From positions 1-64,000 of the IMG/VR virus record IMGVR_UViG_3300005253_000262: a stretch of DNA of 64,000 bases. One strand, given 5' to 3'. The stretch is from a virus. Below the pieces are notes generated by a model. The model was not told the origin of the DNA. It made no database searches and worked only from the letters and a program-made list of their open reading frames with translations. This document shows positions 2 through 6,672 of the stretch, in pieces. The position numbers were made by a program, and so were the translations under genes. Within the stretch, counting starts at the first letter, position 1. Each line of letters starts with the position of its first letter.

Positions 2-331
2 CTGGGGACGGCCCACGTCGGGTACATCCCTAAAGACCGCGTCGTGGGCATATCGAAGCTCTCACGCCTTGTGTATGGGCTCTCTCACGTAATGCCCTCG
101 TTACAAGAGGACATAACTCACTCTGTCACTGCAATACTTGCACATCACCTCGACGCTTTAGGCGTGATGTGTGTCATATCCGCTGAACATGGATGCATGG
201 CTGCTCGTGGTGTCGAGGAAGCTACAGGACAGACGCAGACCTTGACATCTTCCGTTCAGGGGGTGTTCACTGATAAGGTCGAGGCGCGCGAAGAATTTTA
301 TCGGCTCGTTGAGCTAAGGAGAAGATCGTGA
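2..331 (+). CDS. folE: GTP cyclohydrolase I, C-terminal part (cut by window edge)
   Basis: The frame is open from the first bases and ends with TGA at 329-331, so the 5' part lies outside the window. The visible 109 residues match the C-terminal half of the FolE family: the VGYIP strand, a GISKLSRLV helix, and the AEHGCMAARGV segment with the His and Cys that in FolE sit at the active site and bind zinc. FolE converts GTP to dihydroneopterin triphosphate, the first step towards folate and also towards 7-cyano-7-deazaguanine (preQ0). In phages it usually accompanies queD/queE/queC and a DNA transglycosylase; a DpdA-like gene lies 414 bases downstream, so a role in DNA modification is more likely than folate supply. 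The role is inferred from context. Confidence 0.93.
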   Translation: MGTAHVGYIPKDRVVGISKLSRLVYGLSHVMPSLQEDITHSVTAILAHHLDALGVMCVISAEHGCMAARGVEEATGQTQTLTSSVQGVFTDKVEAREEFYRLVELRRRS

Positions 332-654
332 TGGACTTTGTACTGCACATTTTGGAACTACTTGGTTTTGTATTCATCGTAGTGCTGATACTTATCACCC
401 GTGAGGGACCAGGACAAGATCGCACAGCTCGAGGAATCAACGGTATCATCTGCCTCTGGTCGGTCATCAAGCAGAAACGCCGGCTCCACGAATTCATAAG
501 GGTGATGGATGATAACTGGAACGAGATTACGCTCCCCGAAGGAACGCAGTTCCGAGTGGGATCGGAGGGAGGTGGTGAACTATGCACCGTAGTACGTCCC
601 TACATGTTCTTGACACGCGACCTCATGGAGACGGCAAAGTTCCGTAAGGGCTAA
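331..654 (+). CDS. Hypothetical protein with N-terminal membrane segment
   Basis: ATG at 331 overlaps the folE stop; an in-frame GTG sits one codon earlier. The 107-residue product starts with a hydrophobic stretch (about residues 3-22, leucine/valine/isoleucine rich) that looks like one transmembrane helix, followed by a basic, then mixed soluble part. I do not recognise the family. Its overlap with folE suggests translational coupling and the same transcript. It ends before the promoter that serves the DpdA-polymerase operon. Confidence 0.7.
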   Translation: MDFVLHILELLGFVFIVVLILITREGPGQDRTARGINGIICLWSVIKQKRRLHEFIRVMDDNWNEITLPEGTQFRVGSEGGGELCTVVRPYMFLTRDLMETAKFRKG

Positions 655-678
655 TCGGGGCGGATCACTTGACATCAC

Positions 679-708
679 TTGATGACCCCAATAGGGTTCC
701 TATATAAT
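679..708 (+). promoter_or_regulatory. Sigma70-like promoter of the dpdA-polA-nrdJ operon
   Basis: TTGATG at 679-684 and TATAAT at 703-708 are separated by 18 bases. A second TTGACA at 669-674 is too far from the -10 box. The site lies in the only gap between the hypothetical gene and dpdA, and its CCTATATAATAGAGATAATAGA part recurs almost exactly in the promoter at 48,986-49,015. Confidence 0.75.
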
Positions 709-744
709 AGAGATAATAGAATCGCATAAGAAAGGGCCCTAAAG

Positions 745-1518
745 ATGGCTAGATACTCACCGATTGCACCACTTACTTTACTGGAACAGTTGCATGAGAA
801 AGAAATCCTAGGCAACTACCTCCTATTGCTAGCGCACGATGTTCTTGAGTACCCACGAGGATACATCGACTTAATGGACCATATAGGAGTCATGGAGGAC
901 TTCTATCCTGAAGAACGCTTCATCATCATGGACAATAGCGTAGTCGAGCTCTACCAGCCACTTCCACCCGGCAAAGTCATTGAGGCCGCAAATCTGGTAG
1001 AGGCTAACTGCATCATGATACCAGATGTACTAGGTGACTTTCAACTTACGCAGAAACTAGTGATGGAGCACGCGTCGCTTCTGCGTAACTGCGGCTTCCC
1101 CTTAATGAAGGTCCCACAAGGATCTAACGCGGCGGAGCTAGTACAGTGTGTTGACTGGCTTCGCGATTACCTTGAAGTCCCCAATGGTGATGTCGACTAC
1201 TGGGGGATTCCTCGCTGGATAGCTAATCAAGAAGGTTCGCGTATCCCTATCATCCAGTACATTAATGCCAAGTGCGAGGATCCTAAGATGCACCTCCTTG
1301 GTATGTCTGCATATCTCTCGGATGACCTAAGATGCACAAAGCTGCCTGGAGTTATGGGAATCGATTCCGCTAATCCCCTTGTAATGGGGTTTGCTAGAGT
1401 AGATCTATCTACAACCTCTGCATATGTACATATGCATCGTGGTAACTATTGGCAACGCACACACCCCGATGGCCCAGTGATTCGTAACGTGGAGCATATG
1501 CATGAACTCGTCAGCTGA
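745..1518 (+). CDS. dpdA: DpdA-like 7-deazaguanine DNA transglycosylase (TGT superfamily)
   Basis: The 257-residue protein carries motifs arranged as in tRNA-guanine transglycosylases and their phage DpdA relatives: IIMDNSVVE (D63; compare the TGT DSGG motif), IMIPDVLGD (D94), MKVPQGS (Q125), HLLGMS (186) and GIDSANP (D207, the expected nucleophile position). It is shorter than bacterial TGT (about 370) and I see no C-terminal CxCxxC zinc site, as is usual for phage DpdA proteins. DpdA swaps guanine in DNA for a 7-deazaguanine base made from preQ0. The start is supported by AAAGGGCCC upstream. It overlaps the polymerase gene by 17 bases, so both are co-transcribed. Family assignment is by motif reading only; a tRNA-acting TGT is the alternative, less likely in a phage with folE. 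Confidence 0.8.
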   Translation: MARYSPIAPLTLLEQLHEKEILGNYLLLLAHDVLEYPRGYIDLMDHIGVMEDFYPEERFIIMDNSVVELYQPLPPGKVIEAANLVEANCIMIPDVLGDFQLTQKLVMEHASLLRNCGFPLMKVPQGSNAAELVQCVDWLRDYLEVPNGDVDYWGIPRWIANQEGSRIPIIQYINAKCEDPKMHLLGMSAYLSDDLRCTKLPGVMGIDSANPLVMGFARVDLSTTSAYVHMHRGNYWQRTHPDGPVIRNVEHMHELVS

Positions 1519-3913
1519 AGAGCTCCGCTACATATGTGACCATGCTCCTCAAGATGTATGCGATGATTGCCCCTTCGGGGGGCCGAAGGTAGGCTCGAAG
1601 GGGGATCCTGCATCTCCCATTGTCTTCGTTGCTGAGTCACCAGGCTTAGACGAGGTACGTGATGGAGAACCGTTAATAGGCCCCACGGGTAAGGTCTTTC
1701 ATAAGTTCGTTCCCGACGATGGAAGTGTATATGTCCTCAATGCAATGGAGTGTTATCCTGCACGTGTGTTAAAAGAAGGCACAGAAGGGACAAGACGGAT
1801 GCAAGCCGCAGCATATAGCTGCCGTGATCGTCTCCTGCAGAAGATTGAAGCATACCCACACCGGCTCATCGTAGCGATGGGTAACTCCGCAGTACGATCC
1901 CTTACAGGCATCTGGGATCTCAAGATCACAAAGATTCGTGGCCGCCTTATTGAGTCATACCTCGCAGAGCTCGGGATCATGCCAGTGATACATGTAGCTG
2001 CGCTGATGAAGGGGACGGGCTCATTTCGCGAATGGCGCGAGGACATCCAATACGCTATGGAGCTCGGGCTAGGGGGCAGCCCTAGACCCCACTTGAAGGC
2101 AGACGTACGAATTATCCCTGACGATGTAACCCAAGGCTACGTCGATGCCCTCTTTGAATTTCTAACCTGGAGCAGCAATGAGCTTACGGCAGATATTGAA
2201 ACGACTGGTTTCAGTCACATCAACGACCGCATCCTATCGATTGGCATTACCCCCAGGAATGACCTCGGAATCAGTTATTGCTTCTATCCTCATCACCTAC
2301 CGCTTCTTAGGCCTCACTTGGAAGCGTCAACTATACAGTGGTGCTGGCACAACGGAAAGTTTGATGTTAAGTTCCTTAGAGCAGCGGGAATTAAAGCTCA
2401 CGTTGACGACGACACAATGCTCATGTCGTATACCCTGGACGAATTGGGAGGGATTCACGATCTGGAAACAGTGTCATGTGACGTGCTCAGCGCCCCTGAT
2501 TACAAATACATGATCAAACCCTATTTACCTAATAAGGATTCATCCTATGAACTGGTACCACCGCAAATTCTGGCAGAGTATCAAGCGATTGATACCTCGA
2601 ACACCGCTCAAATCAGGCCAATACTACGTAACCGTGTTAGAAGTGACTCAGCACTCGAAAAGCTCTACACCAGAACACTCCTACCTGCGAGTGAGATGCT
2701 CACTGAAGTCGAAGAAGCCGGAATCTGCACCGACCCCGAACGACTAGACGAGAACGAGGTCTACTTCGCAGACATGAAGGCGGAGATTGGGTCAGAAATT
2801 AACGAGCTAGTTGGCTACAACATCAACGCAGGATCACCTAAGCAGGTTAGTGAGCTCCTCTTTAAGCGGATGCGCCTCCCGAATAGGAAGAAGGGATCCA
2901 CAGATAAGTCCGTAATCGCCAAGCTACAGAAACAAACAGAACATCCTATCTTTGCGTTGATCCTGAAGCACCGCAAAGCCGTCAAGATGTACGGCACCTA
3001 CGTTAAGGGGTTTAAGTTATGTGTTGATCCTATTACTAACCGAATACACGCCACGTTTCTTGTACATGGCACTCGAACAGGCAGACTCGCAGCTCGTGAT
3101 CCTAACATGCAGAATCCGCCTCGTGATCCTCAGATTCGAGGGACTTTTGTTGCTGCTGAAGGGTATGAGCTTGTTGAAGTGGATCTCTCTCAGGCGGAGC
3201 TACGTTCTTTGGCGGCACTCTCGGGCGATGAAGCGCTACTCGAAGTATATAGAGGAACTGGAGATCTCCACACCGACCTCGCAAACTTCCTCTTCCCAGG
3301 ATGGGATGTGCGAGACCTCGCCCCAGAAACCCACCAGGAAGCATACGAACAGAGGGTGAGATGCAAGAACGTGAACTTCGGCATTACCTACGGTATCACG
3401 GAATTTGGTCTCCAGGAGCAGATCGGTGGCACACTTACGGAAGCGCGAACGATGATACGCGGGTGGTTCTCGAAATACCCTGGAGCAGCAGCCTTCATCA
3501 ACAAATGTAGGCATGCACCACTAAGCAATCAGGACATTACAACTTGCTTCGGACGCAGGAAGAGAGGTGGGATAGTATCGAGGGAAAACATGCGCTTCTT
3601 ACAAAACGAAGCGGCAAACTTCCCACATCAGTCGATAGCGTCCGACATTACGCTACATGCGGGTATTAGGTGTTGGAGACCATTACAGTCTATGGGGGTT
3701 AGGATCGTGAACCTGATTCATGACGCTCTTCTAATGGAAGTCCCAATCACATCCGATAACCATATCCGCCACGAGGCTATCGTGATGGTAGCGAAGGAAA
3801 TGCGCCAGGTACCTATAGACTGGGGTATTACACAAGTACCATTCATCGCCGAGGGTGAGTATGGTCACCGCTGGGGAACACTCAAAGCATACAAGGAGAA
3901 TATTTATGAGTGA
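1502..3913 (+). CDS. polA: Family A DNA polymerase with N-terminal Fe-S UDG-like domain and 3'-5' exonuclease
   Basis: 803 residues in three blocks. Residues 1-190 resemble family 4/5 uracil-DNA glycosylases: VFVAESPGLDEVRDGEPLIG (41-60), NAMECYP, IVAMGNSA, and cysteines C20, C23, C84, C107 placed like the 4Fe-4S ligands of that family; the usual HPS motif is replaced by HVAALMKG, so glycosylase activity is doubtful. Residues about 225-400 are a proofreading exonuclease (DIETTG 231-236, HNGKFD 283-288). The polymerase domain has motif A DLSQAELR (D561), motif B with K622 and F626 in NFGITYG, and motif C HDA (740-742) in place of the usual HDE. F626 aligns with E. coli Phe762. SPO1-type polymerases are known to carry a similar N-terminal domain. 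It is the replicative polymerase, I infer. Confidence 0.95.
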   Translation: MNSSAEELRYICDHAPQDVCDDCPFGGPKVGSKGDPASPIVFVAESPGLDEVRDGEPLIGPTGKVFHKFVPDDGSVYVLNAMECYPARVLKEGTEGTRRMQAAAYSCRDRLLQKIEAYPHRLIVAMGNSAVRSLTGIWDLKITKIRGRLIESYLAELGIMPVIHVAALMKGTGSFREWREDIQYAMELGLGGSPRPHLKADVRIIPDDVTQGYVDALFEFLTWSSNELTADIETTGFSHINDRILSIGITPRNDLGISYCFYPHHLPLLRPHLEASTIQWCWHNGKFDVKFLRAAGIKAHVDDDTMLMSYTLDELGGIHDLETVSCDVLSAPDYKYMIKPYLPNKDSSYELVPPQILAEYQAIDTSNTAQIRPILRNRVRSDSALEKLYTRTLLPASEMLTEVEEAGICTDPERLDENEVYFADMKAEIGSEINELVGYNINAGSPKQVSELLFKRMRLPNRKKGSTDKSVIAKLQKQTEHPIFALILKHRKAVKMYGTYVKGFKLCVDPITNRIHATFLVHGTRTGRLAARDPNMQNPPRDPQIRGTFVAAEGYELVEVDLSQAELRSLAALSGDEALLEVYRGTGDLHTDLANFLFPGWDVRDLAPETHQEAYEQRVRCKNVNFGITYGITEFGLQEQIGGTLTEARTMIRGWFSKYPGAAAFINKCRHAPLSNQDITTCFGRRKRGGIVSRENMRFLQNEAANFPHQSIASDITLHAGIRCWRPLQSMGVRIVNLIHDALLMEVPITSDNHIRHEAIVMVAKEMRQVPIDWGITQVPFIAEGEYGHRWGTLKAYKENIYE

Positions 3914-4103: not shown

Positions 4104-4354
4104 AGCGGAGACTTGAACTAATTACTGAGAACTACTGGATGGTTAGCCACTCATTGAACCACCCTAGTAGTGATGCACTCTCGTGTGAGAAAGCACTACA
4201 TACGATCAATAGCTCAGATCGCCTGAGACCAGAAGACTGGCGTCTCAACGAACTGATGCATACACTTAGGTACGACATAATTGAAGGAAACACGGAATGG
4301 AGAGGAAACCAACGGGTAGTAGGTTCAGCATTGATCCTGCCCATGAGGGACTAG
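4100..4354 (+). CDS. Hypothetical protein
   Basis: A GTG start at 4100 overlaps the stop of the preceding gene by four bases, the coupling pattern used throughout this genome. The 84-residue product is mixed charged and has no motif I recognise. Its last 58 bases overlap the start of the ribonucleotide reductase gene, which is long for a phage overlap; either both are real or the reductase uses a later start. Confidence 0.6.
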   Translation: MKRRLELITENYWMVSHSLNHPSSDALSCEKALHTINSSDRLRPEDWRLNELMHTLRYDIIEGNTEWRGNQRVVGSALILPMRD

Positions 4355-6672
4355 ATGTCTACGGAGATGCGCAAATCCTCACATACGACGTCTGGAAGGA
4401 TAAGTATCGATATGGCGAGGAGGCTCATCCCTTTGATTCAATGCGTCGAGTCGTCGAGGGTGTATATTCCAAAGATTCCAACGCGGACGCTAAGAGAAAT
4501 GCGCTCGAAGCCATGCAGAAAGGGTTATGGATCCCAGCAGGGCGCATACAGGCGGGAGCGGGAACGCCGAATATAGTCACAATGCTCAATTGCTATATGT
4601 CTCGAGACATCGACGACTCAATGCCAGGAATAATGGAGGCACTGAAGGACGCAGCGCTCACACAACAACAGGGAGGGGGTATAGGAATGAACTTCAGCTC
4701 GCTGCGCCCAAGTGGTGCATTCCTACGTCGTACAGGCGCCGTGGCGAGTGGCCCCCTCCCCTTCATGGATATGTGGGATGGTATGTGTGCCACAATCATG
4801 TCCGCAGGCTCGCGACGTGGAGCAATGATGGCGGTCATGGATTGTGAGCATCCAGATCTGCCTGAGTTCATCACAGCTAAACACGAGGCTGGCAGACTGA
4901 AGAACTTTAATCTATCTGTCCTTATCTCGGATGCCTTCCTTAGCGCTGTGGAAACGGATGAAGAGTGGTTCCTAGGGTTCAACGTCCCCAAAGCGGATGG
5001 GCGACATATCTTCACTGTAGAGCGGGACGATCGCGGTAGGATTGAGCCGTGGTTTGCATATTCCAAATGGAAGGCGCGGGAGTTATGGGATCTAATCCTG
5101 GAGAATACTTATGAGTGGTCGGAACCGGGTGTGGTATTCATTGATCGTATTAATAAACGGAACAACCTCAATTATTGTGAAACGATCACGGGTACTAATC
5201 CTTGTGGTGAACAGCCACTGCCCGCAAATGGTTGTTGCAATCTGGGTGCCGTTAATCTCGCCAAGATGGTCAGAGACCCATTTAGTGACCACGCCCAATT
5301 CGATTATGACCTTCTCGACCAAATTGCCTCTCTCGGAACACGTTTTCTGGACAACGTCATTGATGTCACCCTGTATCCACTGGACGATCAAGCCACGGAG
5401 GAATACGCTAAACGACGAATTGGGGTTGGGATCACCGGCCTTGCAAATGCATTAGCACAACTCCAGGTACGCTATGGTTCACCAGAAGCGTTGAAAGTCA
5501 CCAATATGATTATGCATGCACTCACGAACGCTGTATATAGCGCATCTGCAGATCTTGCAGAGGAACGTGGTGTGTTCCCACTATATGACGGCTCCCAGTG
5601 GGCGGCCCATGAGCGATCTGTACTTCATACTGTGCTTGATCGCGGCACACGTGACAAGCTAAGCAGACACGGGGTTCGTAATGGTGTCCTAATGACTATC
5701 GCGCCTACTGGCACCACTAGCTTGTATGCGGGCAACGTTAGTTCAGGGTTGGAGCCTGTATTCCTTCATAAGGCTCAGCGCAATGTAAGGCAGAAGGACA
5801 ACACATATAAACCTTACACGGTATACGACTATGGATACCTCCTATACTCTGTAGTTCACCACGTTACGCCCACTATGACTACGAAGGGGCTTCCGGACTA
5901 TATGGTCACCCACGAAGCGCTAAGCGTCTGGGAACACATTGCAATGCAGGCAGCGTGTCAGAAGTATGTTGATGCCTCAGTCTCAAAGACAATTAACTGC
6001 CCACAGGATATCACCTTTGAGGACTTCAAGCAGATATATGAAGAGGCACATAAGGCTGGATGTAAAGGGTGCACTACATACCGGTATAGTGAAGTCCGTG
6101 GCAGTATCCTTTCTTCTGGGGCCGCTAAAGACACGCCGACTAGTCAGCCAATACTACTCACACGACCAGACGTGCTCAGTGGGCAAACTTATAAGGTGCG
6201 TTGGCCTAATGTGGACGAGAACTATTACATCACCATCAACGACGTAGGTGGAAAACCCTTCGAGGTGTTCATCCACAGCACTAGTTCGAAGTATACAGAT
6301 TGGACTACGGCACTTAGTTTGATGATCTCGGCAATCATGCGAAAAGGGGACGATATCTCTTTCATGCCTAAGGAACTCGCGAAAGTACGTAGTGCAGACG
6401 ATGTCGGTTATGTGGATGGTGTGTTCTATGGCTCGCTGGTTGCGCTCATCGGGGACACCATAAGAAGACATCTCTCAAGTGGTGATATTAGTAGTGTTGA
6501 ATCGAGTGCCTCAAGACGCCCTGCCTCCAAAAGTGCGAATCCACAGATCAACATAGAGCTTATAGCATCCGGTATTGGGGGCGAGACGTGTCCTAGATGT
6601 AACCAGCCCAGCCTAATCAGACAAGAAGGGTGTGAAGCATGCACTCTCTGCATCTACACAAAGTGCCAATGA
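4297..6672 (+). CDS. nrdJ: Adenosylcobalamin-dependent (class II) ribonucleotide reductase
   Basis: The 791-residue protein reduces ribonucleotides to deoxyribonucleotides for phage DNA synthesis. Family signatures: LNCYM with the first redox cysteine (C99), the QQQGGGIGMNFSSLRPSG loop, NPCGEQPL with active-site N301, C303 and E305, and the APTGTTSLYAGNVSSGLEP segment. GCKGCTTYR and a cysteine cluster at the C terminus (CPRC, CEAC, CIYTKC) are typical of the B12-dependent enzymes, which use C-terminal cysteines for re-reduction. No ATP-cone domain is seen at the N terminus and no small-subunit gene lies nearby, both in line with class II. It implies that the host makes or imports cobalamin. 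No intein or intron interrupts it. Confidence 0.93.
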   Translation: MERKPTGSRFSIDPAHEGLDVYGDAQILTYDVWKDKYRYGEEAHPFDSMRRVVEGVYSKDSNADAKRNALEAMQKGLWIPAGRIQAGAGTPNIVTMLNCYMSRDIDDSMPGIMEALKDAALTQQQGGGIGMNFSSLRPSGAFLRRTGAVASGPLPFMDMWDGMCATIMSAGSRRGAMMAVMDCEHPDLPEFITAKHEAGRLKNFNLSVLISDAFLSAVETDEEWFLGFNVPKADGRHIFTVERDDRGRIEPWFAYSKWKARELWDLILENTYEWSEPGVVFIDRINKRNNLNYCETITGTNPCGEQPLPANGCCNLGAVNLAKMVRDPFSDHAQFDYDLLDQIASLGTRFLDNVIDVTLYPLDDQATEEYAKRRIGVGITGLANALAQLQVRYGSPEALKVTNMIMHALTNAVYSASADLAEERGVFPLYDGSQWAAHERSVLHTVLDRGTRDKLSRHGVRNGVLMTIAPTGTTSLYAGNVSSGLEPVFLHKAQRNVRQKDNTYKPYTVYDYGYLLYSVVHHVTPTMTTKGLPDYMVTHEALSVWEHIAMQAACQKYVDASVSKTINCPQDITFEDFKQIYEEAHKAGCKGCTTYRYSEVRGSILSSGAAKDTPTSQPILLTRPDVLSGQTYKVRWPNVDENYYITINDVGGKPFEVFIHSTSSKYTDWTTALSLMISAIMRKGDDISFMPKELAKVRSADDVGYVDGVFYGSLVALIGDTIRRHLSSGDISSVESSASRRPASKSANPQINIELIASGIGGETCPRCNQPSLIRQEGCEACTLCIYTKCQ

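Follow-up and report, generated by a model that had tools for sequence, protein, structure and literature searches.

Base exchange in DNA has been described for the 9g-type DpdA (PMC6884629), and DpdA1 proteins of this kind (9g, CAjan, and Rosebush-type), which are related to the tRNA-guanine transglycosylases (TGTs), are 306–346 residues long as against 257 residues for the protein described here; as in the present system, they are encoded alongside folE, queC, queD, and queE. In the Campylobacter phages CP220 and CPt10, 100% of dG is reported to be replaced by dADG (PMC8306585), and Hutinet et al. (2019) counted the Campylobacter phages with those that lack a DpdA (PMC6884629). TGT folds can use other acceptors, such as a protein in the case of CBASS Cap10 (PMC11996544). 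The genomes of CP220/CPt10 and immuto carry genes for preQ0 (7-cyano-7-deazaguanine) and encode a short DpdA of about 258–265 residues with DNS, PD, QG, HLLG, and D motifs, all of which are likenesses to the present locus. Such a short enzyme was reportedly named DpdA3 by Cui et al. in 2023, with complete replacement.

The DNA analyzed here, referred to as the window, comes from an uncultured phage and consists of positions 1–64,000 of the 72,474-nt virus record IMGVR_UViG_3300005253_000262. The record breaks inside folE, so the start of the window is an arbitrary cut and its folE is incomplete. At the far end of the record (L002), the N-terminal part of folE is followed by 28 nt starting with the Nextera adapter CTGTCTCTTATACACATCT; this segment (L002:10448-10475) is adapter and not phage DNA, and the record represents a circular or permuted genome whose trimming was incomplete. 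An independent IMG/VR contig, L005, is 100% identical to the record on both sides of the break and runs through it, from which it follows that the genome is circular or circularly permuted. No close phage was found in a nucleotide search. The features of the locus, from the window, the record, and L005, are as follows.

L005 5191-5880 (record ~68374-69063): queC (PF06508, 3.9e-53; TIGR00364, 5.4e-47, above cut-off)
L005:5877-6323: mazG, a MazG-type nucleotide pyrophosphohydrolase gene between queC and queD
L005:6211-6822: queD ORF (PF01242, 5e-18)
L005, between queD and queE: two small ORFs
L005:7262-8974 (record 70445-72157): queE (TIGR03365, 8.3e-47, in two parts)
L005:8937-9587: intact folE, 216 residues (PF01227, 1.8e-42)
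Record 72120-72446, far end (L002): N-terminal part of folE
Window 2-331, + strand: C-terminal 109 codons of folE, GTP cyclohydrolase I (PF01227, E = 1.2e-28, profile positions 80-178)
Window 328-654, + strand: 108-residue ORF between folE and the transglycosylase gene, an ORF only, with no function assigned
Window 745-1518 (L005 10001-10774), + strand: short DpdA-like transglycosylase gene, 257 residues
Window 1502-3913 (L005 10758 onward), + strand: polA, family A DNA polymerase carrying a UDG-like domain at its N terminus (PF00476, 2.8e-76; PF03167, 4.1e-14)

In L005 these genes form a single operon in the order queC-mazG-queD-x-x-queE-folE-x-dpdA-polA, in which Pfam and NCBIfam models identify all four preQ0 enzymes, FolE, QueD, QueE, and QueC. 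The first-pass annotation, made from the window, had reported that queC, queD, and queE are not in it; they are indeed outside the window, yet they are not missing, being part of the same operon near the opposite terminus of the record, and the upstream search that it had proposed locates all three there. Both zinc motifs of FolE, CAHH and HGC, are present. The zinc motif of QueD reads HGY where HGH is usual, a variant that is also seen in StAshley, immuto, and several other loci. The 108-residue ORF has no Pfam, PHROG, or NCBIfam match and no homologue in the other loci surveyed. The end of the dpdA-like ORF (1518) overlaps the start of polA (1502), and examination of the DNA upstream of dpdA for an RNA element gave no Rfam match and a folding z-score of −0.12. 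The large subunit of a ribonucleotide reductase, with a TSCPD domain, is encoded 3′ of polA at window positions 4297-6672, after two small ORFs.

QueE is a single 570-residue frame in which the alignments with database QueE sequences are interrupted at residues 43 and 362, and residues 43–361 match intein and LAGLIDADG models (PF14528, 1e-10; TIGR01443, 4.7e-6; NF038136, 1.1e-17). The 319-residue intein, flanked by CGLRCTW and CDSMHAV, interrupts the radical-SAM CX3CX2C motif precisely at its third cysteine, and its predicted splicing would rebuild this motif with C362 as the third cysteine. Because the intein sits at a [4Fe-4S] cysteine, an active [4Fe-4S] site would need splicing. No other locus of the survey has a QueE intein, and the intein-bearing enzyme is an unusual feature within a standard phage preQ0 operon.

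A search with the single sequence of the 257-residue protein gave no useful match in Pfam, PHROGs, or NCBIfam; a Pfam match to ox_reductase_C (E = 0.2) was dismissed as chance. The AlphaFold2 model of the protein (pLDDT 93.1, pTM 0.91) gave 89 Foldseek matches in the PDB at E ≤ 0.001; the best 50 of these 89 are all TGTs, with E values of ~1e-7 to 1e-6, prob 1.00, and query-normalized TM scores of 0.53–0.64. The first PDB match of a family profile built from 32 sequences is the bacterial DpdA 7ui4, a DNA-guanine transglycosylase (E = 0.0065), a profile from only 4 sequences being too weak (7ui4 at E = 0.27). A PADLOC DpdA model matches one family member at 3.7e-4. When the family was aligned with four TGTs by hhalign (Prob 90.5, E 1.4e-6), Q125, HLLG, and D207 were paired with Q187, YLMG, and D264 of E. 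coli TGT, where, following established TGT enzymology, we take D264 to be the nucleophile and Q187 the substrate glutamine. The aspartates of the TGT DSGGFQ and FDEC motifs lie outside this local alignment and, by motif position, would correspond to D63 and D94.

The four residues D63, D94, Q125, and D207, which had been picked out at first reading as TGT-like motifs, hold up in an alignment of 32 homologues: D63 and D207 are invariant, together with N64, E68, R166, H183, and G186, and D94 and Q125 are conserved in at least 90%. One A2 member has no equivalent of D94, and BSP7 is without the glutamine. It is proposed that D207 is the nucleophile, that D94 and Q125 function in base recognition, and that D63 acts as a general acid/base. 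The protein had also been described as short and devoid of the TGT zinc site, and this is borne out by its length of 257 residues and by an alignment in which the E. coli ligands C302, C304, and C307 have no counterparts and the CxCx2C...H site of PF01702 is missing; the C-terminal region of the TGTs is missing as well. PF01702 has no match above the Pfam cut-off anywhere in the record, in a search whose control was positive in 14 genomes, and no other member of the TGT family was found in the record or in any of 28 further viral records that were examined.

Two profile steps gave 40 IMG/VR loci, the contig L005 being counted among them. The earlier observation that folE and a TGT-like gene lie together ahead of a DNA polymerase, which is evident in the window from the ORFs and the PF01227 match, extends to these loci as a conserved synteny: folE is nearby in 38 of the 40, the gene that follows encodes a family A DNA polymerase in 36, and all four preQ0 genes are present in 29 within the available DNA of each locus, several of the exceptions being contigs that end early. 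Because the synteny is conserved in 40 loci and the fold matches, chance is excluded. The same cluster is found in the cultured Brevundimonas phages StAshley and MaInes, Bacillus phage BSP7, and Weizmannia phage Youna2, where the gene is labeled hypothetical or given unrelated names, and four MAG loci also carry the family. The MAG contigs with short-enzyme homologues (L050-L053) are labeled Sulfurovum, Patescibacteria, and Cloacimonadota. The matches of the family in PHROGs are nameless, and there is no clear match in Pfam and NCBIfam. A few relatives (L034, L035, L043) likewise have a MazG gene close to folE or queD, and a phosphoribosyltransferase gene recurs beside folE in both branches of the family (L003:14620-15775, L027, L030, L031, L045, L046); it might salvage guanine freed by base exchange. 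QueF matches in the relatives are mostly cross-matches of FolE, and among the relatives surveyed genuine QueF neighbors are present only in immuto and L041.

The overall identity of the protein to characterized enzymes is low, and its kinship was assessed through profiles. The relative in L045 matches an immuto protein annotated as a DNA guanine transglycosylase (DpdA) and also a protein, labeled hypothetical, from the Campylobacter CP220 group. The comparison with DpdA subfamilies and TGT that the first-pass annotation had recommended gives, for a profile of the window clade against the CP220/immuto group, a full-length hhalign match over 231 columns (Prob 99.5, E 7e-23), with 7ui4 the best PDB match of the family profile, whereas the window-clade profile does not match DpdA1 (9g, CAjan, and Godines) significantly (Prob ≤0.5). 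VH7D gp012, from the relatives of phage nt-1, may represent DpdA2, to judge from its position between folE and a QueF-like gene, and has no profile match with the family (Prob 6.5); gp69 of the archaeal virus HVTV-1, a DpdA4 candidate by guess, gave Prob 24.8 over 125 columns with one sequence only. In a maximum-likelihood tree, rooted at the midpoint only, a clade of 23 rows that includes the window protein and StAshley and a clade of 14 rows that includes CP220, immuto, and BSP7 are sister clades joined by a long branch.

The operon, the TGT fold, and the kinship with CP220 and immuto suggest that the route to 7-deazaguanine in phage DNA through FolE and a DpdA-type enzyme, as originally put forward, is the best reading of the locus. 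We consider it probable, at roughly 85%, that preQ0 made by the phage is exchanged for guanine in its DNA by the short TGT-fold enzyme, with evasion of restriction as the likely benefit. FolE, QueD, QueE, and QueC of the phage would convert GTP to preQ0; D207 would then attack C1′ of deoxyguanosine with departure of guanine, as in the covalent Asp mechanism, and the 7-deazaguanine, positioned by D94 and Q125, would take its place in the DNA, which, so modified, would be likely to evade host restriction. The exchange probably follows replication, because the gene overlaps polA. The most likely final base is dPreQ0, with dADG the second candidate, because no QueF was found in the record and QueC is not fused to an amidotransferase. 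Replacement is reported to be complete in CP220, and by analogy a high level of replacement is plausible here. The paper on StAshley (PMC10070969) has no biochemical or mass-spectrometry data, and none were found for the clade. Further points that weigh against this reading are the low identity to characterized enzymes, the long branch between the window clade and the CP220 clade, the other acceptors that TGT folds can use, and the departures at D94 in one A2 member and at the glutamine in BSP7.

The intimate association with the polymerase gene, which the transglycosylase gene overlaps or abuts in 36 of the 40 loci, also invites an explanation at the level of the nucleotide pool, in which the enzyme puts preQ0 in place of the guanine of dGMP or dGTP, and the product is then built into DNA by the polymerase encoded next to it. 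Phages handle 2-aminoadenine in much the same way. Such a route would easily explain complete replacement in CP220, and it would fit the loss of the zinc and C-terminal regions of TGT and the nucleotide enzymes near some members of the family, namely MazG here, a kinase and a phosphoribosyltransferase in StAshley, and an HD-domain protein and a kinase in CP220. However, no obligate pool partner is seen: of 27 viral records with the short family, just 6 have MazG, and the phosphoribosyltransferase is present in only a few, a minority, so that neither is supported as an obligate partner, and expression of the 9g DpdA in E. coli led to preQ0 and G+ in plasmid DNA (PMC6884629). Exchange in the pool is thus improbable. 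A broader proposal is that the window clade forms a class of its own among short transglycosylases and, coupled to the neighboring UDG-polymerase, puts preQ0 or a derivative in place of nearly all guanine in the genome, whether on DNA leaving the fork or at the nucleotide level, with the supply of preQ0 further dependent on splicing of the QueE intein; this is speculative and rather doubtful.

The fold, and the fact that preQ0 is also a precursor of queuosine, are also compatible with a TGT that acts on host or phage tRNA, the operon serving to raise queuosine-type tRNA modification, but the record has no QueF, the window has no tRNA gene, the zinc and C-terminal parts used by tRNA TGTs are missing, and the closest kin are from phages with modified DNA; a role in tRNA modification is accordingly very unlikely. 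The very low sequence identity, and the example of Cap10, which shows that the fold can be remodeled (PMC11996544), could alternatively indicate a TGT-fold relative that acts on another acceptor, such as a protein, or a non-catalytic helper. The invariance of D63 and D207 and near-invariance of D94 and Q125 argue against this, and no second transglycosylase that might do the job was recognized; such a role is very improbable. Exchange in phage DNA is preferred.

The homologues, which come from 40 viral contigs, a number of cultured phages, and four MAGs, reveal that the phage DNA-guanine transglycosylases include a large branch that has gone unannotated and escapes the standard libraries. Annotation of the family predicts modified and possibly restriction-resistant DNA in culturable phages of Brevundimonas and Bacillus. 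If replacement of guanine is as complete throughout the group as in CP220, this bears on how a base-exchange enzyme might reach every G in double-stranded DNA.

Among known systems, the bacterial DpdA (7ui4) and the tRNA TGTs share with the window protein the fold and the matching Gln and Asp, but they are larger (375–436 residues versus 257), and the window protein has no zinc site and falls below all family cut-offs. The unannotated proteins of StAshley and MaInes belong to its own clade, with 33% identity, and are likewise encoded between preQ0 genes and DNA polymerase A; these phages differ from the present one in having folE downstream with a phosphoribosyltransferase gene, a QueE free of an intein, and no mazG beside queC. 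Compared with the CP220/immuto enzymes, the window protein is without the insertion that precedes the conserved Arg and reads GIDS where they have (L/V)DTSNP, and its locus has no QueF or formyltransferase partner. As judged from sequence, the window enzyme is a deeply branching, so far unannotated short DpdA, and the modification system in which it would function is of a known kind.
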